This document shows, piece by piece, positions 51,047-61,690 of a stretch of 61,690 nt of DNA. The notes under the pieces were generated by a model that saw only the letters and a list, made by a program, of their open reading frames with translations, searched no databases and was not told where the DNA came from. Source of the DNA: a virus; the IMG/VR virus record IMGVR_UViG_3300048507_001022, positions 1 through 61,690 of that record; one strand, 5' to 3'. Numbering within the stretch: the first letter of the stretch is position 1; every line of letters starts with the position of its first letter. The translations under genes and the position numbers were made by a program.

Positions 51047-52465
51047 ATGAAAGACAATAGAATATCAAGTTTACCAGAAGTTAGAGCATTATATGCAAAC
51101 ATACCTTCTTTTAGTCTTTCGCCTACCACTCCAATACAATTCGATGATGACGCATTATTTTTGGTTACAAAATCAGGCATAGGCAATGAAAAAATTACAT
51201 ATAAAAATTTAAAATCATCTATTGTTGGCAATACTGTTTCACTGACTGGAGCGCAAATTATAAGTGGAGAAAAAACTTTTGCAGATCCATGCACATTTGA
51301 AGACACAATCTTCATGCATGAAGTAATAGATGTCACAAAAACAGGCGATATTAGCGGAAATATTTTCGTAGCAAACACTGGTTTATTCGAAAACATTGGA
51401 GTTGGCTCGGGATTTGTTGATAAAACAGTGTCTCCAGAATATAATTTGCATGTTATTGGAGATTCTTTTTTTCAAGGAGATATTGTATCTACAGGAAACA
51501 TCTCTTTTCTTGGGGATGTTGCGATTCAAGGAGCATCAATAGAAGGTGGAGACCTTTCTATCACAGGAAATTCATTTTTTAAAGCTGGAACAGTAACTAT
51601 TGGAGACGCTTATCTCTCTGGAAATATGCAACAAACAGGAGATTCTTATATCGATGGAAATGTTAGCATTACAGAAGATCTTTTTGTTGGAGAGAAAATA
51701 GTGCACGAAGGAGATGAAGATACTTTTATTCACTTTACAGATGATAGAATCGCACTGCAAGCAGGTAATGAATCTAAAATCATACTTGAAGAAGCGATAG
51801 AAGATTTCATATCTTTCGAAACGCAAGGAGTTGAAAGAATGAGGTTAAATAATGACGGATTTTTGAGTATAAATTCTCAAGAAGCGCTTGGCGAATTATC
51901 TGTTACTGGATCTGCTTATCTAGAAGATTTATATATTACTGGTCAAAATGGACAATGGGTAAGAGTTGCTCCAGTACCGAAAGATGAATCTGTTAGTTTT
52001 TCTACGAGCTTAGCACAAGGTCAATCTCAACACAAAATAGATTTCCCAAAAACATTTGGAGAAATTCCAGCAATTTCTACTTCAATAATCAACTCTGCAG
52101 GAGGGGCAATTATACCTCATATCGTATCTGGAGTATCCGAAGATTCATATTACATAAATTTTGGCTCAGCATTAAATAGCAATGATTATAGCGTTCATAC
52201 TTTTGCGCGACCAACAGGCTTCTCCTCGGATACAAAAACTAAAATACTTTCTTTTAGAAAGTTCTTGCTTCCACTAGGCGATAGAGTATTTAATATATCA
52301 TTTGATCCGCCTTTCACATCTACTCCTTCTGTATCAGTAACTATTCAAACTGATTCAGAAATTATACCGTATATGCTATCAGGAGTCACAAAAGATTCAT
52401 ACAATATAGTATTTGGCTCAGATATTTCAGAAAATTATACTGTTCATACCCACGCCACAAGATAA
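51047..52465 (+). CDS. Virion fibre-like protein, tandem paralogue 2, 472 aa
   Basis: Paralogous along its length with the preceding gene: NRISSLPEVRALY, LTGAQIISGEKTFADPCTFE, VIDVTKTGDISGNIFVANTG, central T-G-N/D repeats, and two C-terminal modules (FPKTFGEIPAISTSI, FDPPFTSTPSVSVTI). It follows its partner with one base between stop and ATG. The N-terminal 30 residues are the most different, suggesting different attachment or register; C-terminal modules may read different ligands. Function inferred from layout. Confidence 0.65.
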   Translation: MKDNRISSLPEVRALYANIPSFSLSPTTPIQFDDDALFLVTKSGIGNEKITYKNLKSSIVGNTVSLTGAQIISGEKTFADPCTFEDTIFMHEVIDVTKTGDISGNIFVANTGLFENIGVGSGFVDKTVSPEYNLHVIGDSFFQGDIVSTGNISFLGDVAIQGASIEGGDLSITGNSFFKAGTVTIGDAYLSGNMQQTGDSYIDGNVSITEDLFVGEKIVHEGDEDTFIHFTDDRIALQAGNESKIILEEAIEDFISFETQGVERMRLNNDGFLSINSQEALGELSVTGSAYLEDLYITGQNGQWVRVAPVPKDESVSFSTSLAQGQSQHKIDFPKTFGEIPAISTSIINSAGGAIIPHIVSGVSEDSYYINFGSALNSNDYSVHTFARPTGFSSDTKTKILSFRKFLLPLGDRVFNISFDPPFTSTPSVSVTIQTDSEIIPYMLSGVTKDSYNIVFGSDISENYTVHTHATR

Positions 52466-52468
52466 TTC

Positions 52469-52497
52469 TTGACAAGCTTTGCTTTTCATGCTAGAAT
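52469..52497 (+). promoter_or_regulatory. Sigma-70-type promoter, leaderless start for deoxyribosyltransferase-like gene
   Basis: TTGACA (52469-52474), a 17-base spacer and TAGAAT (52492-52497), then 7 bases to ATG 52505. A longer reading beginning at TTG 52469 would start within the -35 box, so it is discarded. It separates late fibre genes from the early block. Confidence 0.82.
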
Positions 52498-52504
52498 ATT
52501 TAGT

Positions 52505-53044
52505 ATGAAGAATCTACTATATAAAACTAAATGTTATCTCGTTGGGCATATGCAATATGTCAGCGGAAGAAATTGGCGTGAAGAAGTTGCAGAAAAACTC
52601 GCGCCATTAAGCATTACTTGTTTTGATCCCTACAAAAAACCTTTTATAAAGGATGTAGAAGAAGATGAAGCTAATCGCCAAGAAATGGAAACTTGGATGA
52701 GAACAAAGCAATACGACAGAGTCACAGATAGAATGAAAACAGTGAGAGCCTATGATTTAAATCTAGTAGACAGAAGCGATTTTATTATTGCTCATCTTGT
52801 GCCCGAAGTGGCGAGTTGGGGAAGCGCTGAAGAAATAGTCACAGCGGTTAGAGAAAAAAAACCCGTATTTGTGAGTATGGAGGGTGGAAAAGCTAAGACT
52901 CCACTATGGATGCTTGGCATGTTTCCGCATAAATATATTTATAACAGTGTTGAAGAAATTATAGAAATGCTTTTTGCAATCGACGACGGAAATAAACCTA
53001 TCGACTCAGACAGATGGAGATTATTAAGGAAGGAGTTTAGATGA
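52505..53044 (+). CDS. Nucleoside 2-deoxyribosyltransferase-like protein, 179 aa
   Basis: The start YKTKCYLVGHMQYVSGRNWREEV has the G-x-x-x-x-x-x-x-W pattern of the Nuc_deoxyrib_tr / DUF4406 fold. RAYDLNLVDRSDFIIAHL supplies the central D-L-x-x-x-D-S/R-D, and SWGSAEEIVTAVREKKPVF supplies the G-T/S-x-x-E-x-x-x-A element with the catalytic Glu. The enzyme swaps bases on deoxyribonucleosides, salvage for DNA synthesis. The 4-base overlap (ATGA) with the 40-aa gene, which has a good GGAG site, suggests coupling. Confidence 0.68.
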   Translation: MKNLLYKTKCYLVGHMQYVSGRNWREEVAEKLAPLSITCFDPYKKPFIKDVEEDEANRQEMETWMRTKQYDRVTDRMKTVRAYDLNLVDRSDFIIAHLVPEVASWGSAEEIVTAVREKKPVFVSMEGGKAKTPLWMLGMFPHKYIYNSVEEIIEMLFAIDDGNKPIDSDRWRLLRKEFR

Positions 53045-53163
53045 TAGAAGCTCTAGCATCATCATATTTTGAATTTTTCACTGGAGACTTTTTAGTTTTT
53101 GGTTTCGTTGGATACATCGTTTGGCATTTTAGAAAGAAAGAAGACGAAGATTTTTATGAGTAA
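53041..53163 (+). CDS. Small single-pass membrane protein, 40 aa
   Basis: A short frame starts at ATG 53041 with a clear Shine-Dalgarno sequence (aaggag, 7 bases upstream). Residues ~15-30 (GDFLVFGFVGYIVWHF) form a membrane helix followed by a charged tail RKKEDEDFYE, so the C-terminus is probably cytoplasmic. It overlaps the deoxyribosyltransferase-like gene by 4 bases and the GMP reductase gene by 8 bases. The function is unknown; a short membrane protein could inhibit a host process or anchor an enzyme. Confidence 0.65.
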   Translation: MIEALASSYFEFFTGDFLVFGFVGYIVWHFRKKEDEDFYE

Positions 53164-54130
53164 ACAACTAAAATACTCTGATGTTGTATTAATACCTAAT
53201 TATAGTGAGTGCAATAGTCGCGCAGAGTGCGATACAAGTGTTGATGTTTTAGGCAAAAAATACAAGTTACCAATCATTCCTGCAAACATGAAATCCGTTA
53301 TCGACATGAATTTATCTAAATGGATGAGTGATAATGATTATTTTTATATCATGCATAGGTTTGATAACGATTTAGCAGAAGAAGTCGCTATTGCAAATTC
53401 AGAAAACTGGAAAACAATTTCATTTAGTATAGGCATTCAAGACTCAGATAAAGATAAGATTTTAAAAATTAAAAAACGCGGACACAGAATAGATTATCTC
53501 ACAATAGATATTGCTCACGGTCATTCAAAAAACATGATTGATATGATTAAATTTATTAAAGATACATTACCTGATACAAAAATTATTGCAGGTAATGTAG
53601 CGACAAAGCAAGCAGTCATAGATTTAGCTGGGGCGGGAGCAGATATTGTAAAGGTTGGAATCGGCCAAGGCTCTCCTTGCACAACAAAAGACAAAACTGG
53701 GTTCACGCTACCAATGTTTAGTTGTTCAGAAGCTTGTAGCAATATTTATATCGGAGAGAATGAAGACGATTTACAAAAAGTTCCAATTATTGCGGATGGA
53801 GGAATTGGATGTAATGGAGATATCGCGAAAGCGATTGTAGCGGGAGCAAACATGGTAATGGCAGGAGGTTTATTTGCGAGTTGCTCAGATAGTCCTGCAA
53901 CACTTGTGCAAATTAACGGGGAGTACCACAAAGCTTATTTTGGATCAGCGAGTTATGAAAGCAAAAAACATCGAAACCATATAGAAGGCAAATTAAATAA
54001 GTTAAAGAATAACGGAATGACGTATTCTCATAAATTAAAAGAGATCGAACAAGACCTGCAAAGCGCAATTTCATATGCTGGAGGTTTAGATTTAAAGGTG
54101 TTAAATAATGTTTCATATCTTAAAGTATGA
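53156..54130 (+). CDS. guaC: GMP reductase (IMPDH/GMPR family)
   Basis: The ATG at 53156 (MSKQLKYSDVVLIPNYSEC) gives 324 residues, the usual size of GMPR enzymes; an upstream TTG reading is discarded. Family features are ANMKSVID, YLTIDIAHGHS, IIAGNVAT and GIGQGSPCTTKDKTG (catalytic Cys). IIADGGIGCNGDIAKAIVAGANMVMAGGL is the phosphate site, and YFGSASYESKKHRNHIEG is the GMPR-like flap. CBS domains of IMPDH are absent. It reduces GMP to IMP with NADPH, feeding adenine nucleotides for an AT-rich genome. IMPDH activity is less likely but not excluded. Confidence 0.87.
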   Translation: MSKQLKYSDVVLIPNYSECNSRAECDTSVDVLGKKYKLPIIPANMKSVIDMNLSKWMSDNDYFYIMHRFDNDLAEEVAIANSENWKTISFSIGIQDSDKDKILKIKKRGHRIDYLTIDIAHGHSKNMIDMIKFIKDTLPDTKIIAGNVATKQAVIDLAGAGADIVKVGIGQGSPCTTKDKTGFTLPMFSCSEACSNIYIGENEDDLQKVPIIADGGIGCNGDIAKAIVAGANMVMAGGLFASCSDSPATLVQINGEYHKAYFGSASYESKKHRNHIEGKLNKLKNNGMTYSHKLKEIEQDLQSAISYAGGLDLKVLNNVSYLKV

Positions 54131-54660
54131 TTAAAGAAATAACCGACATAGATTCTTTTGATAAAGCTGTAGAAGAATGGAATAACGATACAAATCTTTC
54201 TTTTTGGCAAGAGCTAGGGGTCGAACAAAAACATAATTTTAATGCAGACTCTATAGAAACGAGATTCAGGCTTATGTTCTTGCAAAGTCTAACGAACCCA
54301 AAACAAGAAGAAAAAATTAAACTATGGTCTTACGAAGAAGATGGAAAAAGCATAGCTGGATGCGCTTTCTCGGAGAACTATAACTTTCTTATGGGAGAAA
54401 ATGTTCTACAAGAAATGTTATGGCAATTCAATGGTAAATTCGCAAAGACTTACAAAGAAGTAAAAATATTAAATCTTTTATTAAAACATGCTGAAGAATA
54501 TGCTCGATCTAAAAAATTAGATTCAATTATTATTGGCAGAGACCCAAGATTGCACAAACCATTTATGAATAACAAGATAGAAATCAAAAATTACTATACA
54601 AACCAAGACTATACAGCATTTAGTGTGTTTTATATTAAATCTTTGAAAAATAAATCTTGA
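54127..54660 (+). CDS. Possible GNAT-type acetyltransferase, 177 aa
   Basis: The centre has a GNAT-like order: strand KIKLWSYEEDGKSIAGCAF, loop, then YKEVKILNLLLKHAEEYARSKKLDSIIIG, comparable to the helix and strand that hold acetyl-CoA. The Q/R-x-x-G-x-G/A pyrophosphate loop is not clear, so binding is uncertain. It is a soluble protein translated with GMP reductase (ATGA overlap). Alternatives include an unrelated small phage protein; treat as tentative. Confidence 0.55.
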   Translation: MIKEITDIDSFDKAVEEWNNDTNLSFWQELGVEQKHNFNADSIETRFRLMFLQSLTNPKQEEKIKLWSYEEDGKSIAGCAFSENYNFLMGENVLQEMLWQFNGKFAKTYKEVKILNLLLKHAEEYARSKKLDSIIIGRDPRLHKPFMNNKIEIKNYYTNQDYTAFSVFYIKSLKNKS

Positions 54661-54685
54661 CATTATTGACTTTATATACTATAAT
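54657..54685 (+). promoter_or_regulatory. Consensus sigma-70 promoter, leaderless start at 54693
   Basis: TTGACA (54657-54662), exactly 17 bases, TATAAT (54680-54685), then 7 bases and the ATG at 54693. Both hexamers are perfect consensus, the strongest promoter in the window. It overlaps the end of the preceding gene. Confidence 0.9.
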
Positions 54686-54692
54686 CAATCAC

Positions 54693-54869
54693 ATGAACGG
54701 TAAAACATCTAAACAAATTAGAAAAATTTTAAACTTTGACCCGAACAGTTCGGAATCAACACAAAAGCGAGTTTATTCTCGCGCTAAAAAACAATATAAT
54801 AAACTTAGTAAAGCAGCTAGACCTGTATTTTTACAAGAGCTACAAAACCTATACAATCAATCAAATTAA
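54693..54869 (+). CDS. Small basic protein, 58 aa
   Basis: The ATG at 54693 is fixed by the promoter. The protein MNGKTSKQIRKILNFDP... has a predicted helix-rich, Lys/Arg-rich composition (STQKRVYSRAKKQYNKLSKAARPVF) compatible with nucleic-acid binding. It is the first gene behind the best early promoter, so it may be among the most abundant early proteins. Function unknown. Confidence 0.65.
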   Translation: MNGKTSKQIRKILNFDPNSSESTQKRVYSRAKKQYNKLSKAARPVFLQELQNLYNQSN

Positions 54870-54871
54870 TT

Positions 54872-55237
54872 ATGAGTAATCAAACAAACGATAACCAAGA
54901 ATCAAAGTGGCGCAGTAGAGAGCTTGGAGCTCTTTGGGTGCGAAGCGGTAAAAATCAAAAGTACCTATCAGGTACAGTAAACATCGAAACGATGCCAGGC
55001 GTAACAGAAGCTCTAAAAGTTGTTGTTTTCACCAACAAGGGTCGAGACAAAAATGAAAGAGCTCCTGATTATGTTATTTACCGATCAGAAGATCAACAGC
55101 AAGACGTTGGAGCGGTCGCTCAACAAGCAGCGCAAGAAGTTCAATCTTCTCAATCTACAGAGGTTACTGCGCAAGCAGAAGCTTCCGCCCAAGCAAAAGT
55201 ATCAAAGGATGAAGACATTCCTGAGGAGCTTTTCTAA
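54872..55237 (+). CDS. DUF736-like protein with SSB-type acidic tail, 121 aa
   Basis: Residues ~17-70 (ELGALWVRSGKNQKYLSGTVN...VVVFTNKGRDKNERAPDYVIYRS) match DUF736, small beta-rich proteins often next to plasmid and phage replication genes. A Gln/Ala linker follows, and the final 10 residues (KDEDIPEELF) imitate an SSB tip. This may bind the same partner as SSB and the 185-aa protein. It is 2 bases after the 58-aa gene. Function is inferred. Confidence 0.72.
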   Translation: MSNQTNDNQESKWRSRELGALWVRSGKNQKYLSGTVNIETMPGVTEALKVVVFTNKGRDKNERAPDYVIYRSEDQQQDVGAVAQQAAQEVQSSQSTEVTAQAEASAQAKVSKDEDIPEELF

Positions 55238-55249
55238 TAAAAGTTAAAA

Positions 55250-55435
55250 ATGGAGAAACAATTCTGGCATAGCAAAAAGTTCTGGGCAGCGTTAATTGCT
55301 GCGGGTGTACCTGCTCTAAATCACTTTTTAGACTTAGGAATGACTCAAGATATTGTCACACAAATTGTAGGGCCAATCGTGGCTTATATTTTAGGGCAAG
55401 GTCTTGCGGATCTAGGCAAGAATAAAAACAATTGA
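55250..55435 (+). CDS. Small membrane protein, holin-like, 61 aa
   Basis: HSKKFWAALIAAGVPALNHFL is a short membrane segment, and a second one (DIVTQIVGPIVAYILGQGLADLG) follows, with a charged C-terminus. Such two-helix proteins of ~60 residues occur as holins or holin-like proteins in phages. No endolysin gene is visible in this window, so lysis function cannot be confirmed; an alternative is a membrane effector. It ends 14 bases before the tmRNA. Confidence 0.6.
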   Translation: MEKQFWHSKKFWAALIAAGVPALNHFLDLGMTQDIVTQIVGPIVAYILGQGLADLGKNKNN

Positions 55436-55449
55436 TCTTTAACAGTTTA

Positions 55450-55817
55450 TGGGCGTGTACTGGATTCGATTTAAATTGAATTTGTATACTGCAAGTAGGA
55501 GTGTGTCTGGCTCCTAAAAAAGGCACAAAAAATTACATGGCAAAAATCTTAGTCGTGTCGAAAGCTTCGCTCCAAAAAGCGAAGTTTTCGCTTTGGCAGC
55601 ATAACGTCTGTCACCTCGCACCTCTTGACGCAGATAGAGAGATTGCGGGGTCATCAATCTGCAAAACAGAAAAAGTTTTCTTGAATCACAAACTGTAAAT
55701 AATTGAAACAAGAAGTTGGATGTTAATATCATAACTATAAAAAAAATTAACTAAACTTGTAGATGTATATTATTGAAGATTTAAAGACGCGAGAATCGAA
55801 GCTCGCCGCGTCCACCA
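55450..55817 (+). ncRNA. ssrA: Phage-encoded tmRNA
   Basis: The 5' GGGCGTG (55450-55456) pairs with CGCGTCC (55807-55813) ahead of A-CCA, and CTGGATTCGA follows, the conserved tmRNA 5' block. The 3' end has the T-arm GCGAG...CTCGC and the ACTAAACTTGTAGA stretch typical of tmRNA. PK1 is readable (AGGAG/CTCCT with GTGTC/GGCAC). Twelve bases after it, GGC at 55539 is the resume codon with U and A at -5 and -4. The tag begins GKNLSRVESF, ends KSEVFALAA, and stops at TAA 55602-55604 (21 residues). It releases stalled ribosomes and marks products for ClpXP. Confidence 0.92.
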
Positions 55818-55830
55818 TTTTTTAATAAAA

Positions 55831-55980
55831 ATGAAAAACTTAAAAACTCTAAAGAAAAAAATATATAAACTCAATGTTCTTAGAAAAAGCTCTGAGCGCT
55901 CGCTAAAACTAGCGAAGGCTCATCTCGCAAAATATAAAAGAAAAAATAAAATTGAGCGCAACCAAAAAAATAATTTTTAG
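55831..55980 (+). CDS. Small very basic protein, 49 aa
   Basis: ATG 55831 begins a 49-codon frame immediately after the tmRNA (MKNLKTLKKKIYKLNVLRKS...). About one third of residues are Lys or Arg. It overlaps the following frame by 29 bases. The start has no Shine-Dalgarno sequence. It could bind nucleic acid or simply be a small early product; coding status is likely but not proven. Confidence 0.5.
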   Translation: MKNLKTLKKKIYKLNVLRKSSERSLKLAKAHLAKYKRKNKIERNQKNNF

Positions 55981-56398
55981 AAAATCCGCAAGAATACCTT
56001 TTTATGAAATTTTAGATAAGTTTCATGAAAATTTTGTAGATTGCTTTCTATTAACAGGCGTAACAAAAAATAACGCTGATCTAGAAGAAATACCATTTAC
56101 AAAACATCCAGACTATTCATTAGATTTCTATAAAATTTTAGTAGGTGGACTTAAAAAGTTTAAGCCATCGCTTGTATGTAGATTGCAAGAAGAAAAATAT
56201 TTAGAGCTTGAATGTTTATATTATAATTTTGGAGAATACGAAGGAGAAAATCAAGTGTACATGATACAAAATGTTATGAATTGGACTAATAAAAATGATT
56301 TTTGTTGCCAAGTATGCAATCTTTCATTGCGAGATATTGATCTAATAGAAACATTCTGGACTTCTTCGAAGCTTCATGGCTTTACAAAATACGAATGA
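55952..56398 (+). CDS. Unknown early protein, 148 aa
   Basis: Not recognised. The only suitable start in frame is TTG 55952, inside the end of the 49-aa gene; an internal start would lose a well-formed N-terminus (TKKIIFRKSARIPFYEIL). It contains CCQVCNLSL (Cys pairs at ~121-126, incomplete for a zinc site) and alternating aromatic residues. It ends ATGA-coupled to the next small gene. Confidence 0.55.
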   Translation: MSATKKIIFRKSARIPFYEILDKFHENFVDCFLLTGVTKNNADLEEIPFTKHPDYSLDFYKILVGGLKKFKPSLVCRLQEEKYLELECLYYNFGEYEGENQVYMIQNVMNWTNKNDFCCQVCNLSLRDIDLIETFWTSSKLHGFTKYE

Positions 56399-56589
56399 GT
56401 TCAAGACAAGAAAGAAGAGAACCGTGGAAACTTTCTTATCAAAAACGGAAGAGTGTTTCTAAAAAATTCAAAGACACAGAAATTGAAATACAAAAAGCAA
56501 AACAATCTCAAGATTGGACAAAAGTTAAAAGATTAAAATATATATTAAGAAAAGTATGGTGGGGAATAAAAAGATATAAAAATAAATGA
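56395..56589 (+). CDS. Small basic protein, 64 aa
   Basis: A highly basic helical protein (SSRQERREPWKLSYQKRKSVSKKF...). It overlaps the previous stop by 4 bases and the next start by 4. No homologue is recognised. Likely to bind nucleic acid or an acidic host factor. Confidence 0.55.
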   Translation: MSSRQERREPWKLSYQKRKSVSKKFKDTEIEIQKAKQSQDWTKVKRLKYILRKVWWGIKRYKNK

Positions 56590-56888
56590 AATTATTAAAA
56601 ATAATAAAAGATTTTTTCTTTAAAACAAAACAAAAGAAAGCAAACTTTTCAGTTTTATTTTTGACCGCGCTCAAAGATCAAATTCATTTTAAAAAAATTG
56701 ACAACAAGAGCGTCCCCGAAGAACTCTCAGCGCAAGAATGGAATAAAATTTTAGACAAGATCTGGTATGCGTTTGCGGCATTAGATAGAGGTTCAATTTT
56801 AAAATCGCCTCGAAAACGAAAGCTTAGAGAAGCGAATATCAACGAGGGTATGGAACTATTTAAAAAATATTACAAACAATTAAAATAA
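56586..56888 (+). CDS. Unknown early protein, 100 aa
   Basis: N-terminal ~40 residues are basic and hydrophobic, followed by SVPEELSAQEWNKILDKIWYAFAALDRG and KSPRKRKLREANINEGMELF. This looks helical and compact, like small phage proteins of unknown role. It sits in a row of four short genes, the first joined by 4-base overlaps. Confidence 0.6.
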   Translation: MKLLKIIKDFFFKTKQKKANFSVLFLTALKDQIHFKKIDNKSVPEELSAQEWNKILDKIWYAFAALDRGSILKSPRKRKLREANINEGMELFKKYYKQLK

Positions 56889-56890
56889 TT

Positions 56891-57085
56891 ATGACCGACG
56901 AAGAACACGAAGAAATCGAAGACGATGACGATGAATATGAAATGACTTTTGATCCAGACGAAGCATTGATCTTGGCTGTTAATGAAGTGAATGAACTTAA
57001 AGATTTAGTTGAAGATCAAAAGAGTGAAATAGAAAAGCTCAAAGGGGACGTATCTTTTCTTCTTAAAAATTATAAAAAGCCTTGA
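56891..57085 (+). CDS. Acidic coiled-coil protein, 64 aa
   Basis: The first 25 residues are nearly all Asp or Glu (DEEHEEIEDDDDEYE), then a heptad coiled coil (VNELKDLVEDQKSEIEKLKGDVSFLL). The highly acidic head may mimic DNA or bind basic host factors. It starts 2 bases after the previous gene. Its last codons overlap the next early promoter. Confidence 0.6.
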   Translation: MTDEEHEEIEDDDDEYEMTFDPDEALILAVNEVNELKDLVEDQKSEIEKLKGDVSFLLKNYKKP

Positions 57086-57110
57086 CATTATATATTTTCT
57101 ATGGCATAAT
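57082..57110 (+). promoter_or_regulatory. Sigma-70-type promoter, leaderless start at 57119
   Basis: TTGACA (57082-57087), 17 bases, CATAAT (57105-57110), then 8 bases to ATG 57119. It starts the RuvB-like operon. Confidence 0.82.
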
Positions 57111-57118
57111 AGTGTCAT

Positions 57119-57391
57119 ATGAAAAAAGTATCATTAAACAAAGATGGAACTCCCCGCAAACGCCGTAATTCAGGCAAAAAAGGCGGTTCAACTATTGTTT
57201 CCTTGTCGATTGACGAGATCTTAGAGCTCGCATCACAAGAAGTATCTTGTATCCCCGTAAGTCAAGATTGGGTCAAAGGAAGGCTTTATGCAAACTACCT
57301 TGCAAACAAAAAAGTTTCCCATGATTTTTCTGAATTACAATCAGCAGAAGACAAGATTGAATATGCAATAACATCTTTTGATAATGAATAA
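57119..57391 (+). CDS. Small basic protein, 90 aa, leads the RuvB-like operon
   Basis: A Lys/Arg-rich N-terminus (KKVSLNKDGTPRKRRNSGKKGGS) precedes a helical acidic domain (SIDEILELASQEVSC, FSELQSAEDKIEYAI). The N-terminal tail resembles DNA-binding tails. The gene overlaps the RuvB-like ATG at 57384 by 8 bases, so it may assist the ATPase. Function unknown. Confidence 0.62.
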   Translation: MKKVSLNKDGTPRKRRNSGKKGGSTIVSLSIDEILELASQEVSCIPVSQDWVKGRLYANYLANKKVSHDFSELQSAEDKIEYAITSFDNE

Positions 57392-58310
57392 TTATTTTTC
57401 TCATTTAATAGGTCAAGATAACGTCAAGAAAAAGTTAAACTTTTATCTTAAAGCTTATCACGCAACAAGTGTTTGTCCGTTCCTCAACTTAGTAGGAGCA
57501 AAAGGTCTCGGCAAAACTTTGTTTGCAAAAGAATTCGCGAAGAATCTTAACAATAAAGACGGCAGCAAGCGACCATTTTTAGAATTAAATTGCTCTACGA
57601 TCAAAAACAACGAGCAATTTTTTGAACAAATTTTTATTCCATTGATCATGAATAATGAGATTACTATTCTGTTTGATGAAGCGCATGCTTTGCCTAAAGA
57701 TTTAACGATGGCTTTTCTGACTATTTTTAATACAGAAAAAACCAACACAAAAGAATTTGTTTATGACGATCAGACATTTACTTTTGATTTCACGAAGCAA
57801 ACTTTTATTTTTGCTACGACAGAAAGTGATAAATTGTTTCCTCCATTAAAAGATAGGCTTAGTACAGTTGATTTTGAACAATACTCTTCTAATGATCTTT
57901 CAGATATTATTAAGCTTAACTGCGAAGGAATTAACTTTAGCGAAGACGCTCTAAATGCACTATCCCTAACTGTTCGCGGTAATGCTAGAAATGCAGTTAT
58001 GCGTTCAAAAGAAATTGTTTTGTATTGCGAGTCAGAAAATCAAAATACGTTTACTATGGCAGATTATAATAAACTTACTGACTTGTTGGGCATTCTTCCT
58101 CACGGAATTACATGTACAGAAAAACAAATTCTACAGATTTTAGATGACAGAGGTAGCTGCAAACTACAAACTCTTTCTGCTGTGACAGGCTTAAGTCCTA
58201 CTTCTCTCAGAAGAGATCACGAAGTGTATCTTTTGAGAAAGAATTTTATTCAAATAGATGGAGAAAGAAAAATTACAAATTTTGGTAAAACACTCATTCA
58301 ATCAATATAA
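57384..58310 (+). CDS. RuvB-like AAA+ branch-migration ATPase, 308 aa
   Basis: The ATG at 57384 (MNNYFSHLIGQDNVKKKLNF) corresponds to RuvB's G-Q-x-x-x-x-x-x-L start. Walker A is GAKGLGKT (38-45), Walker B ITILFDEAHAL, sensor I IFATTESDKLF, and LKDRL carries the arginine finger. The C-terminal ~75 residues (LQTLSAVTGLSPTSLRRDHEVYLL...FGKTLI) form a winged-helix domain as in RuvB. The family moves Holliday junctions; here it may act with the resolvase-like protein at 59484. No RuvA is seen. Confidence 0.8.
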   Translation: MNNYFSHLIGQDNVKKKLNFYLKAYHATSVCPFLNLVGAKGLGKTLFAKEFAKNLNNKDGSKRPFLELNCSTIKNNEQFFEQIFIPLIMNNEITILFDEAHALPKDLTMAFLTIFNTEKTNTKEFVYDDQTFTFDFTKQTFIFATTESDKLFPPLKDRLSTVDFEQYSSNDLSDIIKLNCEGINFSEDALNALSLTVRGNARNAVMRSKEIVLYCESENQNTFTMADYNKLTDLLGILPHGITCTEKQILQILDDRGSCKLQTLSAVTGLSPTSLRRDHEVYLLRKNFIQIDGERKITNFGKTLIQSI

Positions 58311-58311
58311 T
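58282..58311 (+). promoter_or_regulatory. Weak promoter-like element before 58317
   Basis: TTGGTA (58282-58287), 18 bases, TATAAT (58306-58311), then 5 bases to ATG 58317. The -35 box is poor but the arrangement copies the leaderless pattern. It overlaps the end of the RuvB-like gene. Confidence 0.4.
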
Positions 58312-58316
58312 ATAAT

Positions 58317-58511
58317 ATGACAGAACAAACAAAAAAAACAGTATATGTGGTCACACGAAATTCCAGAAGAATTGAAGAACGCAATTATGCCTCCAAAGAA
58401 GATGCTGAATCTCGAGCGCAGCAATTAGTTACAGTGCTGAAAACATGGAAAGACCCAGATCAGAATAAAGTTCGCGTAGTTAAAACAGATCGTCCTACAA
58501 AAATCAGATAA
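58317..58511 (+). CDS. Small unknown protein, 64 aa
   Basis: A short charged protein (KTVYVVTRNSRRIEERNYAS...) with a beta-alpha pattern: strand, helix (KEDAESRAQQLVTVLKTW), strand (NKVRVVKTDRPTKI). No family recognised. Its stop overlaps the next gene's start by one base (TAATG). Confidence 0.62.
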   Translation: MTEQTKKTVYVVTRNSRRIEERNYASKEDAESRAQQLVTVLKTWKDPDQNKVRVVKTDRPTKIR

Positions 58512-59023
58512 TGGATTCTCTTCCTACCCAAGAACAGTTTCTTTCTTTTGAAGAAATGGCCAAGAAAAAAGGTTATTCGCCTGAATATGTTGGTAGAAAA
58601 AATGAATACAAAAGTGTTTCTCACATCTTCAAGGCAAAAGGAAAAGATGGAAAACCTATCTTCTTGAGATTTGATTTGAAGAAAGCTAAAAATCTAAAGC
58701 AAAATCAAGACTGGATTTGGATTGAGTTTAAAAACTCTGAAGGAGAAAATGGGTGGATTCACGGCGATTCTCATTTTGTAGCTTTCGAAAGACAAAAAGA
58801 TTTTGTTATAGTTAATCGATCTGAGCTTCTATCATGGTTAAGTTCTGGAGAAAAAATTCGGTATGATTTACCTTTTGTGTCTCTAGCTAAAAAAGCTAAA
58901 TACAGAATATATAAACGCGCAGGAAAAAAAGATGAAATTACTCAAATTCATTTTAAAGATTTGAAAAAATTAGAATCTTTTCAAGTGTGGAATAAAGAAT
59001 ATGCCGAACCAGATCAAATTTGA
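58511..59023 (+). CDS. Possible nuclease-like protein, 170 aa
   Basis: The centre WIWIEFKNSEGENGWIHGDSHFVAFE contains E-x-K followed by an acidic and His residues, the order seen in some PD-(D/E)xK nuclease folds. FVIVNRSELLSWL and a basic C-terminal part (LAKKAKYRIYKRAGKKDEI) follow. A first catalytic Asp is not evident. It lies between the RuvB-like ATPase and dCMP deaminase, so a recombination role is conceivable. It overlaps the deaminase gene by 23 bases. Function remains tentative. Confidence 0.55.
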   Translation: MDSLPTQEQFLSFEEMAKKKGYSPEYVGRKNEYKSVSHIFKAKGKDGKPIFLRFDLKKAKNLKQNQDWIWIEFKNSEGENGWIHGDSHFVAFERQKDFVIVNRSELLSWLSSGEKIRYDLPFVSLAKKAKYRIYKRAGKKDEITQIHFKDLKKLESFQVWNKEYAEPDQI

Positions 59024-59468
59024 TCTAACTTATCTTAAAATGGCTCGAACTTGGGCATCTCTATCTCAAGCCAATAGAAAAAAAGTTGGATGCTTGATAG
59101 TGAAAGATGGAATGATTATTTCGGATGGTTATAACGGAACACCAAAAGGTTTTGATAATTCTTGCGAAACAAGTATCATGCCAGAATCTATAGCTCCAAA
59201 TGATTTAAATATGCATCCACCAAATGCGTTGATAACCAAACCCGAGGTTTTACATGCAGAAAGTAATGCTATCACAAAGCTCGCCAAATCAACTCAATCT
59301 AGCGTTGGTGCTACATTATATACCACAGCTTCGCCATGTATTGACTGCGCTAAATTGATTATACAATCTGATATACATAGAGTTGTTTATGATGAGCTAT
59401 ACAGGGATTCCAAAGGAATTGATTTGCTTAAACAGGCAAATGTTATAGTTGAAGCTTGTAATATTTAA
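59001..59468 (+). CDS. Deoxycytidylate (dCMP) deaminase
   Basis: Zinc-site motifs are intact: HAESNAI (His and catalytic Glu) and PCIDCAKLII (P-C-x-x-C). RKKVGCLIVKDGMIISDGYNGTPKGFDNSCE is the family N-terminal region with the G-Y-N-G-T-P substrate loop. It converts dCMP to dUMP, the thymidylate precursor, and dUTPase lies two genes downstream. Starting at 59001 gives 155 residues, a normal size; M at 59040 would cut the first helix. Confidence 0.9.
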   Translation: MPNQIKFDLTYLKMARTWASLSQANRKKVGCLIVKDGMIISDGYNGTPKGFDNSCETSIMPESIAPNDLNMHPPNALITKPEVLHAESNAITKLAKSTQSSVGATLYTTASPCIDCAKLIIQSDIHRVVYDELYRDSKGIDLLKQANVIVEACNI

Positions 59469-59483
59469 TTTACTATTATCGAC

Positions 59484-60050
59484 ATGATCGAAAGTATACT
59501 AATTATAATTATATTAGCTTTATGCTACAAACTTTATGGGCGCGAGGCAGAAGATGACAATTTTGAATTAGATGATTTGCGAAATGAAAATGAGTTTTTA
59601 AAATTAAAAATCAATGAACACACAGTAGAATCAAAAGGTAGAGAAGATAATTTAACGAAGATTATTAATGAACTACAAACATCTATTCCAAAAGATAGAG
59701 AAGATTTCGAGAAAAGAAACGGCCTTCAAGCACAACAGATAAAAGAGCTTGAGGAAAAGCTCGATAGTGAGACTGAGGCTCGCAAGAAAGTCCTTTCTCA
59801 AAAGAAGAGCGGGGAAGTTAGACTTGGGCATATAGCGGAGACCCTAGCCCCCTTCTTGGATCAATTTGAATTTGATCCAGAGAGATGTTCCTTTATGGGT
59901 AAACCAATTGATTATATATCATTCGGAGATGATGAGATAACTTTTATAGAAGTAAAAAGCGGTAACGCACAATTAAATCAAAGACAAAGACAAATTAAAA
60001 AATTAGTAGAACAAAAAGCAATATCATGGAAAGAAGTAAGGATAAAATAA
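59484..60050 (+). CDS. Membrane-anchored Holliday-junction-resolvase-like endonuclease (Endonuc_Holl type), 188 aa
   Basis: Residues 2-18 (IESILIIIILALCYKLY) are a membrane anchor and ~25-110 a coiled coil. The C-terminal 75 residues are a PD-(D/E)xK core: GHIAETLAPFL (Glu), FMGKPIDYISF (Asp), FIEVKSGNAQLNQRQRQI (E-x-K and Q/R motif). This matches the family of endonucleases related to archaeal Holliday-junction resolvases. It could resolve recombination intermediates produced with the RuvB-like ATPase, possibly at the membrane. A weak TTGAAG / TACTAT pair stands upstream. Confidence 0.75.
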   Translation: MIESILIIIILALCYKLYGREAEDDNFELDDLRNENEFLKLKINEHTVESKGREDNLTKIINELQTSIPKDREDFEKRNGLQAQQIKELEEKLDSETEARKKVLSQKKSGEVRLGHIAETLAPFLDQFEFDPERCSFMGKPIDYISFGDDEITFIEVKSGNAQLNQRQRQIKKLVEQKAISWKEVRIK

Positions 60051-60466
60051 AAGTAAAGTTTAAAAAATTAAACAAACGCGCAGAAATCCCTTTTTACTCA
60101 AAAGATGGAGATGCGGGAATGGATTTAATCGCTACAACACTAGTTCGTACAGGCAAGTTTTCTGAATACGGTACAGATTTGGCCGTAGAGATACCTAGAG
60201 GGTATGCAGGATTGCTTTTTCCTAGATCCAGCATATCAAACACAGATCATTTTTTAAGAAACTCTGTAGGCGTTATTGATTCAGGTTATAGAGGAGAAAT
60301 TAAACTAAGAATGAGCATTCCGGCTTTAGGAGAAAAAGAATATCTCATGGGAGACAAAGTGGGTCAATTGGTTATCATTAAACTTCCTTGGGTGGAAGTC
60401 GAGGAAGCTGATGAACTTTCAGATACTGATCGTGGAGAAGGTGGATTTGGAAGTACAGGAAATTAA
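60026..60466 (+). CDS. dut: dUTPase (dUTP pyrophosphatase)
   Basis: All five trimeric dUTPase motifs are present in order: DAGMDL (I), PRSSIS (II), GVIDSGYRGEI (III), VGQLVI (IV) and RGEGGFGSTG (V), in a 146-residue protein. It hydrolyses dUTP to dUMP and PPi, keeping uracil out of DNA. The start overlaps the resolvase-like gene by 25 bases, so translation is probably coupled. PPi is presumably consumed by the pyrophosphatase at 61159. Confidence 0.95.
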   Translation: MERSKDKIKVKFKKLNKRAEIPFYSKDGDAGMDLIATTLVRTGKFSEYGTDLAVEIPRGYAGLLFPRSSISNTDHFLRNSVGVIDSGYRGEIKLRMSIPALGEKEYLMGDKVGQLVIIKLPWVEVEEADELSDTDRGEGGFGSTGN

Positions 60467-60476
60467 ATTTTAAGTC

Positions 60477-60505
60477 TTGACATTAAGCCTAATTTATGAG
60501 ATAAT
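60477..60505 (+). promoter_or_regulatory. Sigma-70-type promoter, leaderless start at 60512
   Basis: TTGACA (60477-60482), 17 bases, GATAAT (60500-60505), then 6 bases to ATG 60512. It begins 11 bases after the dUTPase stop. Confidence 0.82.
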
Positions 60506-60511
60506 ACTAGC

Positions 60512-60760
60512 ATGTTCAATATTAAATCAAAGTTAAAAAACAAAGTTATGAAAAATCAAGATCAACGTTATTTCGTAGTATATAAGAATGCAGAAGACGA
60601 GGTTAAGACTTATGAAATTGGTCGCCCTCAATTAGCAGATTCTTTTGGAAACAAGGAAGAAGAAAGAAACAATATTGGATTCAAGGCTTTTTGCTTTGGT
60701 CGCCAAGAATTTCGCTCTTTTCGTCACGACAGAATTGTTTCTCTAACACGAGCATCGTGA
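60512..60760 (+). CDS. Small WYL-like protein, 82 aa
   Basis: The ATG at 60512 is fixed by the promoter. A basic N-terminus (NIKSKLKNKVMKN) leads to RYFVVYKNAEDEVKTYEIG and FKAFCFGRQEFRSFRHDRIVSL. The last segment resembles the final strands of WYL domains (Y-C-x-x-R-x-x-R-x-F-R-x-D-R-I), though the W-Y-L triplet itself is absent. WYL domains sense ligands or nucleic acids in regulators. Here it stands alone, without the usual HTH. Tentative. Confidence 0.55.
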   Translation: MFNIKSKLKNKVMKNQDQRYFVVYKNAEDEVKTYEIGRPQLADSFGNKEEERNNIGFKAFCFGRQEFRSFRHDRIVSLTRAS

Positions 60761-60963
60761 ATGGAGCGATCATCAATTATTCTCTAAACAAATTTTGTCC
60801 TTTATTGATCATAGGGTTCCTCTTGTTATATAATTACGGTTACGCAACATGGGAGCCCTATATCATTATGGGGCTTATTTTTTTTATAGAGAAATTTAAT
60901 TTTAATGTGGGATATTCGGTTGCATTCTGTGAATTGAATAATATAAACATTAATCATGATTAA
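60757..60963 (+). CDS. Small two-helix membrane protein, 68 aa
   Basis: GTG 60757 overlaps the previous stop (GTGA). Two hydrophobic segments are visible: CPLLIIGFLLLYNYGYATW and EPYIIMGLIFFIEKF. It could be a holin-like or superinfection-related membrane protein; nothing more can be said. The codons before the GTG are unlikely to be used, as they lie within the WYL-like gene. Confidence 0.55.
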   Translation: MNGAIINYSLNKFCPLLIIGFLLLYNYGYATWEPYIIMGLIFFIEKFNFNVGYSVAFCELNNININHD

Positions 60964-61151
60964 TGAAACTCTCCGAAGAGCAAGAAAGATTCTTTTTAAA
61001 ATTAATTGAAGAAATGCAAGAATTATCACTAGAGTTAATACATGCAGTGAATAAACCCAAAAAAAACAATCAATCTAAAATTCTTTCTGAGATACAGGAC
61101 GTAGAAACATATATTGAAAAAGTAAAAAATACTGTAAATACCTCCCTGTAA
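60963..61151 (+). CDS. MazG-like (all-alpha NTP pyrophosphohydrolase-like) protein, 62 aa
   Basis: FFLKLIEEMQELSLELIHAV carries the E-E-x-x-E metal site and ILSEIQDVETYIEKV the matching E-x-x-D. This is the four-helix MazG/dUTPase-like arrangement reduced to two visible helices. Full-length MazG-like proteins are ~90-110 residues, so this is unusually short. It may cleave (d)NTPs or ppGpp-like compounds. It overlaps the previous stop by one base and precedes the pyrophosphatase. Confidence 0.65.
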   Translation: MKLSEEQERFFLKLIEEMQELSLELIHAVNKPKKNNQSKILSEIQDVETYIEKVKNTVNTSL

Positions 61152-61158
61152 GTGTATT

Positions 61159-61680
61159 ATGAATAAAATTTTTATGTCTTCCAATCTATTCCACACGCCT
61201 CAACCAGATAATTTCCCAGAAGTTATTAATGCAGTTGTAGAGATACCAAAAGGTACAAATGTAAAGTATGAATACGACCACATCGAAGGTCATTTTGTAT
61301 ACGATCGAAGCTTACTTAGCCCAATGGTTTACCCTTCAAGCTATGGATTCATACCTCAAACAATAGGGCCTGATCACGATCCCCTAGATGTGCTTATTTA
61401 TAATAATACTCCCATAGATAGAGGCACCGTGGTGGAATCAAAAGTTCTTGGAGTTTTAGACATGGAGGATCAGGGAGAAAAAGATTATAAAGTATTAGTT
61501 ATTCCTACTTCTCACATTAGAGACCATTCATCAATTGAAGATATAGACCCATTATTCTTAAAATTATGCAAAAACTTTTTTGCGCATTACAAAGATTTAT
61601 CCCAAAAAAGAGTAGTTGTTCATGATTGGCACAGCAAAGAAGAAGCGTATAAAATTATCAATCAATCAAAATTAACTTAA
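61159..61680 (+). CDS. ppa: Inorganic pyrophosphatase (family I)
   Basis: VVEIPKGTNVKYEYDHIEGHFVYDR is the family opening (E-I-P-x-G-x-x-x-K-Y-E). YPSSYGFIPQTIG is the G-F-I-P element, DHDPLDVLIY the D-x-D-P-x-D signature, and MEDQGEKDYKVLVIP supplies the remaining metal and substrate residues. It hydrolyses PPi to phosphate and drives DNA synthesis. All catalytic positions I can check are retained, in 173 residues, the usual length. It is the last gene here, 7 bases after the MazG-like gene. Confidence 0.94.
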   Translation: MNKIFMSSNLFHTPQPDNFPEVINAVVEIPKGTNVKYEYDHIEGHFVYDRSLLSPMVYPSSYGFIPQTIGPDHDPLDVLIYNNTPIDRGTVVESKVLGVLDMEDQGEKDYKVLVIPTSHIRDHSSIEDIDPLFLKLCKNFFAHYKDLSQKRVVVHDWHSKEEAYKIINQSKLT

Positions 61681-61690
61681 AAATTATAAT

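Follow-up and report, generated by a model that had tools for sequence, protein, structure and literature searches.

The window analysed here, the whole stretch of 61,690 nt, is a viral contig (61.7 kb) from a large, uncultured marine phage; among its genes are those for tail proteins, a holin, a clamp loader, a dCMP deaminase and a dUTPase. It also carries a nucleotide-metabolism set, with a nucleoside deoxyribosyltransferase-like gene at 52469–53044, a gene of the IMP dehydrogenase/GMP reductase type at 53099–54130 and an inorganic pyrophosphatase gene at 61159–61680. The only Rfam match in the entire window, found with cmscan, is a one-piece tmRNA gene (ssrA) at 55451–55817 on the plus strand, the strand of all window features described below. 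The gene is 367 nt long, covers positions 1–374 of the full RF00023 model, and scores 105.9 bits (E 2.2e-40) against a gathering score of 47 bits. A first-pass annotation, made from the letters alone, had recognized a phage tmRNA here and proposed scoring it with a covariance model; the reading is borne out, with a score above the family threshold. Of the 368-base gene that it had placed from 55450, the 3′ end at 55817 stands and the start moves to 55451. Directly upstream lies a holin-like gene at 55250–55435 (phrog_9987 holin, 4.7e-10), whose stop codon overlaps a boxA-like leader, GATCTTTAACAGTTTAT, at 55434–55450, immediately 5′ of the tmRNA. A promoter and terminator scan around the tmRNA gave nothing convincing.

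The gene follows the standard one-piece order and is not of the circularly permuted two-piece kind (cmscan). In the acceptor stem, GGGCGTG at 55451–55457 pairs with CGCGTCC at 55807–55813 at seven of seven positions, two G.U pairs among them, and the 3′ strand continues into an ACCA that is encoded in the DNA (55807–55817 for strand and ACCA together). The acceptor pair G3.U70, the mark of alanine tRNA, is present, and it is invariant in 35 of 35 aligned relatives. The PK1 region, placed at 55497–55527 by the Rfam alignment, shows double-sided changes in five of the seven nested-stem pairs. A resume codon GGC at 55539 opens a tag reading frame of 21 codons, GKNLSRVESFAPKSEVFALAA, which occupies 55539–55601 and is closed by a TAA stop codon at 55602–55604. 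The acceptor stem pairing, the CTGGATTCGA block, PK1, the resume codon with its 21-residue tag and the conserved 3′ stretch (ACCA) are all as the first-pass annotation described them. The T-arm at 55789–55806, GCGAG-AATCGAAG-CTCGC, has an 8-nt loop where a 7-nt TTCRANY-type loop is usual and is without the usual T54-A58 arrangement, and the PK3 and PK4 parts of this copy fit the RF00023 model poorly. The model accepts the gene despite the 8-nt T-loop, a detail that the first-pass annotation had passed over, and the tmRNA at 55451–55817 is genuine, complete and phage-encoded.

When run on the window, ARAGORN called no tmRNA. The program also misses 20 of 43 related phage tmRNAs (21/44 with the window copy included) and, for several others, reads a different tag. 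That it is silent here does not count against the window gene, because related tmRNAs with ordinary T-loops are missed too; nor is the 8-nt loop the cause of the failure, since the program also overlooks 7-nt-loop copies such as L076, L075 and L061. With about half of the tmRNAs of this clade missed, counts of phage tmRNAs that are based on ARAGORN may be too low.

A clamp-loader scan retrieved 50 related contigs of viral origin, the longest of 211 kb, and a tmRNA above the family cut-off was found in 43 of these 50 marine contigs. The remaining seven do not show absence of the gene, because those contigs may be fragments. Among isolated phages there was no DNA match to the locus, one weak clamp-loader match and some weak tail matches, and scanning viral contigs for sequence patterns taken from the window's tmRNA gave no match. 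With 35 phage tmRNAs aligned, 90.7% of the cells are paired and 40 of 61 base pairs show double-sided changes, a level reached in none of 500 shuffles, with slid versions of the alignment pairing at 40–53%. The PK1 stem, the long P2 helix and a PK2-type helix are all paired and covarying. The tmRNA block is 92–93% identical to its counterparts in L003, L006 and L010, against 66–79% for most flanking genes, which makes it the best-conserved DNA of its neighbourhood.

The tag is preserved along with the fold. In 44 of 44 phage tmRNAs the frame is open and ends in [LM][AV]A-stop, with two pairs of copies having a tag that ends in VA, and tag length ranges from 19 to 41 codons across the clade. 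Values of pN/pS are 0.08–0.23 for the last five tag codons, as opposed to 0.55–0.69 for the remaining tag, a sign of strong purifying selection at the tag end; RNA structure may be a shared cause of the low values at the tag end. Judged by sequence comparison the phage tmRNA is under strong selection, and the comparative evidence says that it is functional. This pattern bears on the possibility that the RNA chiefly disarms or diverts the host system, either as a decoy for SmpB and ribosomes or by tagging host proteins to feed the phage. There are precedents for both variants: the tmRNA of mycobacteriophage DS6A is approximately a tRNA-like domain alone, and a molecule of this kind acts as an inhibitor of tmRNA (PMC4131195, PMC11915505), while host-protein recycling has been proposed for the tmRNA of phage Melnitz (PMC9004378). 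A decoy, however, needs no tag frame, and all 44 copies retain the resume codon, the frame and an LAA-type end under selection; unlike the DS6A type, which has no tag frame, the window tmRNA has a full mRNA-like domain and a tag. The preservation of the tags argues against a pure decoy like that of DS6A and leaves the protein-recycling variant unaffected, and we regard diversion as the chief role as unlikely.

The 3′ end of the window gene has a history of its own. The relative L002/L076 (contig L002) matches the window by blastn at 99.2% over 52403–55791 and at 98.7% over 55925–61687, with nothing between. The abruptly differing segment, 55792–55924 (blastn and alignment), begins inside the T-arm and takes in the exchanged tmRNA 3′ end and the first part of what lies downstream. 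In the window copy, the 3′ end (GCGAG-AATCGAAG-CTCGC, CGCGTCC and ACCA) is identical to that of L086, L087 and L090, and the phage tmRNA copies beyond these four have a 7-nt TTC T-loop. In L086, L087 and L090 the 5′ strand is GGGCGCG, which pairs with CGCGTCC without a wobble at position 6; the GGGCGTG of the window produces U6.G67. Because CGCGTCC fits the former and gives a wobble in the latter, the T-arm and acceptor 3′ strand of the window were most likely imported by recombination from an L086-like phage. A different cassette, AGCGG-TTCGACT-CCGCT, is found in L076, L082 and L092; these tmRNAs end in CCAAAA, so that CCA addition by a host enzyme would be required. Misassembly is an unlikely source of the difference between L076 and the window, given that both 3′ ends recur elsewhere, in L082 and L092 and in L086, L087 and L090. 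These cases show the T-arm of a tmRNA to be exchangeable as a cassette. In L076 the tmRNA is followed by an apparent remnant of an older, decayed 3′ end (CCCCACATCCACCA).

The 8-nt T-loop and U6.G67 could lower the activity of the window copy. Taken further, the window would hold a weakened allele, poor or inactive through its imported T-arm and wobble, of a gene that is functional in the clade as a whole. The missing T54-A58 arrangement, the wobble itself and a score of 105.9 bits, compared with 124.1 for the close 7-nt-loop relative L076, are what such an allele might show. Nevertheless, the identical 8-nt arm, with all five T-stem pairs, occurs in three phages with different tmRNA bodies, and the remainder of the window gene is intact and ~99% identical to the L076 copy, which makes a weakened window allele improbable.

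A candidate agent of the exchange lies next to the gene in some relatives. L062, L087 and L090 each have, immediately 3′ of the tmRNA, a 192-aa gene with similarity to phage endonuclease and HNH families (phrog_3322, 2e-20), and in the viral collection all three complete copies of this gene are located at a tmRNA 3′ end, a fourth match being broken by a contig end. It is plausible, from these positions, that a homing endonuclease drives 3′ cassette exchange. More tentatively, the tmRNA 3′ end may be a homing site at which the HNH enzyme would cut the T-arm region of rival alleles, its spread exchanging cassettes of T-arm and acceptor strand that restore the tmRNA and alter the target; the 8-nt loop would then be an immune, functional allele. 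We consider this fuller scheme possible but doubtful. Intron-bearing tmRNAs, with a group I intron in the T-loop, offer a parallel in that the T-arm is likewise the target of a mobile element (PMC11915505), although here there is no intron and the HNH-type gene of L062, L087 and L090 is free-standing. A non-exhaustive literature search turned up nothing relevant to homing endonucleases at tmRNA among the titles and abstracts listed, and both the recombined 3′ end and the HNH-type gene at that end look new. The 192-aa genes of this HNH/endonuclease VII-like type at L062:883–1458 (−) and L004:1596–2171 (+), both adjoining the tmRNA on its 3′ side, belong to two divergent branches of the clade, and their 5′ flanks contain what seem to be the degenerate remains of a second tmRNA end, CCTGCACTTCCACCA in L004 and CCTCCACTTCCACCA in L062.

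Several lines of comparison point to the hosts of these phages. In six sister phages a DUF1501 gene lies directly 3′ of the tmRNA, and the copy in L077 (L077:216–1493, −) is 64–74% identical to genes of marine Opitutales, as against about 41% or less for the next groups, which are mostly Planctomycetota. The L077 gene was possibly taken from a host. That sister phages carry a DUF1501 gene resembling the Opitutales version suggests hosts in this order, and on such sequence grounds the hosts are probably marine Opitutales (Verrucomicrobiota). The tmRNAs of this group have a GGC resume codon and tags of 16–18 residues, for example GENNIVNFEPELEALAA, in 19 of 19 cases in one family. A start with glycine and a long tag had been flagged as unusual in the first-pass annotation, the commonest tag length among tmRNAs overall being 10 residues (PMC11915505), but marine Opitutales ssrA typically has both; for the glycine resume codon a meaning peculiar to phages can be set aside, given that the probable host lineage has GGC too. 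Comparison of the tag with candidate hosts, which the same annotation had suggested, gave a mixed answer: the GGC start and a long tag are shared, but the window tag itself does not discriminate and matches the family no better than it matches other Verrucomicrobiota tags, so tag similarity is no proof of host family. Several sister-phage tags do match the Opitutales host family well. The ssrA genes of marine Opitutales (L175–L180, L242–L254) resemble the phage gene in being one-piece, with a GGC resume codon and a boxA-like leader directly 5′. They differ in that the phage tmRNA is more AT-rich, has a clearly different PK2–PK4 part and a longer tag and, in the window copy, an 8-nt T-loop.

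In the tmRNA tree the phage copies form one clade (100/99) in a mixed Verrucomicrobiota part and join Verrucomicrobiota without resolution, a placement that suggests an old rather than a recent acquisition. This has a bearing on whether the tmRNA could be a passenger, either host DNA captured through imprecise excision or a retained integration site. It is true that ssrA is a frequent integration site of genomic islands (PMC11915505) and that, in these phages, recombination is concentrated at the tmRNA 3′ end. But the gene is complete, the phage copies group together in the tree, and the tmRNA is retained in most contigs of the clade and is more conserved than its neighbours; we find a passenger origin scarcely credible. 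In the host family, two MAG contigs, L188 (G054:C62) and L180 (G056:C63), end inside the tmRNA gene, and a full tmRNA match is absent in about half of the genomes (22/41). These breaks and missing genes could reflect incomplete assemblies or islands integrated at ssrA.

The leader provides a further link in the comparison of phage and host genes. TCTTT occurs at the leader site in 39 of 44 phage tmRNA loci, and the leader takes the forms GATCTTTAACAGTTTAT or GTTCTTTGAAAATTTT in phages and GCTCTTTGAAACTTTGAT or similar in marine Opitutales. In the host family it precedes 19 of 19 tmRNAs, versus 2 of 24 elsewhere in the order, counts in which the genomes are related and the tests therefore not independent; none was seen among the remaining tmRNAs sampled in the class. 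We call the leader boxA-like because the same kind of sequence, GTTCTTTGAAAGTTATTT, which resembles GATCTTTAACAGTTTAT, sits 113–118 nt upstream of 16S rRNA in two host-family genomes (L211 and L212), and we infer that it binds NusB/S10. The window contains no other exact copy of the leader and no excess of near matches. No description of boxA at ssrA was found among the titles and abstracts listed in a non-exhaustive literature search, and the present data suggest that ssrA can carry a boxA-type leader. A boxA-like element near ssrA is also seen in two small-genome relatives, L257 and L277.

No SmpB gene was detected in any of 40 related contigs by a search that recovered SmpB from each of 10 bacterial controls; since the phage genomes compared are all fragmentary, SmpB is possible in their unseen parts. 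Unless it is encoded there, the phage tmRNA probably uses host SmpB, which lends indirect support to the same proposal in the first-pass annotation. We consider it likely that the window holds a working tmRNA that supports trans-translation during infection and whose 3′ end was recombined from a related phage. The basis for expecting a working molecule is its full predicted fold, an acceptor stem with invariant alanine identity, a conserved resume context and a ClpXP-type LAA end. The tmRNA would be transcribed together with the adjoining lysis-side genes and then processed, charged with alanine by host AlaRS, and delivered by the host's SmpB and EF-Tu to ribosomes that have stalled. It would free those trapped on broken mRNA, which is expected to build up as phage and host mRNAs degrade, and the tag added to the stalled products would direct their destruction by host ClpXP-type proteases. 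The likely gain for the phage would be rescue capacity once host ssrA transcription fails. That phages can depend on trans-translation is indicated by the lambda hybrid phage lambda-immP22, which infects ΔssrA or ΔsmpB Escherichia coli ~10,000-fold more poorly (PMC2862035).

Phage tmRNAs are already known, though uncommon as the first-pass annotation noted, with genes in 402 of 18,146 phage genomes, stated as 2.3% (PMC9004378). What is unusual here is the leader, the clade's tags of up to 41 residues and the 3′ cassette exchange. Mycobacteriophages (Bxz1 and its relatives, and Wildcat) and Bacillus phage G also carry tmRNA genes (PMC4131195); compared with these by description, not by sequence, the present group is set apart by its probable Opitutales host, boxA-like leader, long tags and recombined 3′ end. 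Methylophage Melnitz and pelagiphages are likewise marine tailed phages with their own ssrA, but the Melnitz tmRNA is two-piece and under a glutamine riboswitch (PMC9004378), whereas that of the window is one-piece. The cultured marine verrucomicrobial phage P8625 has a 32.9-kb genome and no RNA genes (PMC4642752). The contigs described here tie a large group of uncultured marine phages to probable Opitutales hosts, and they show a ribosome-rescue RNA retained by phages throughout a clade that apparently has no SmpB of its own. With its tags of 19–41 residues and its different T-arms, the clade amounts to a natural series for asking what phages need from a tmRNA. At the long end of this range, L081 and L083 have tags (GEGYN...) that reach 40 and 41 residues, and the 31-residue tags of L062, L066 and L093 contain an apparent internal duplication (RALGFKNRLAAKRFGFK).
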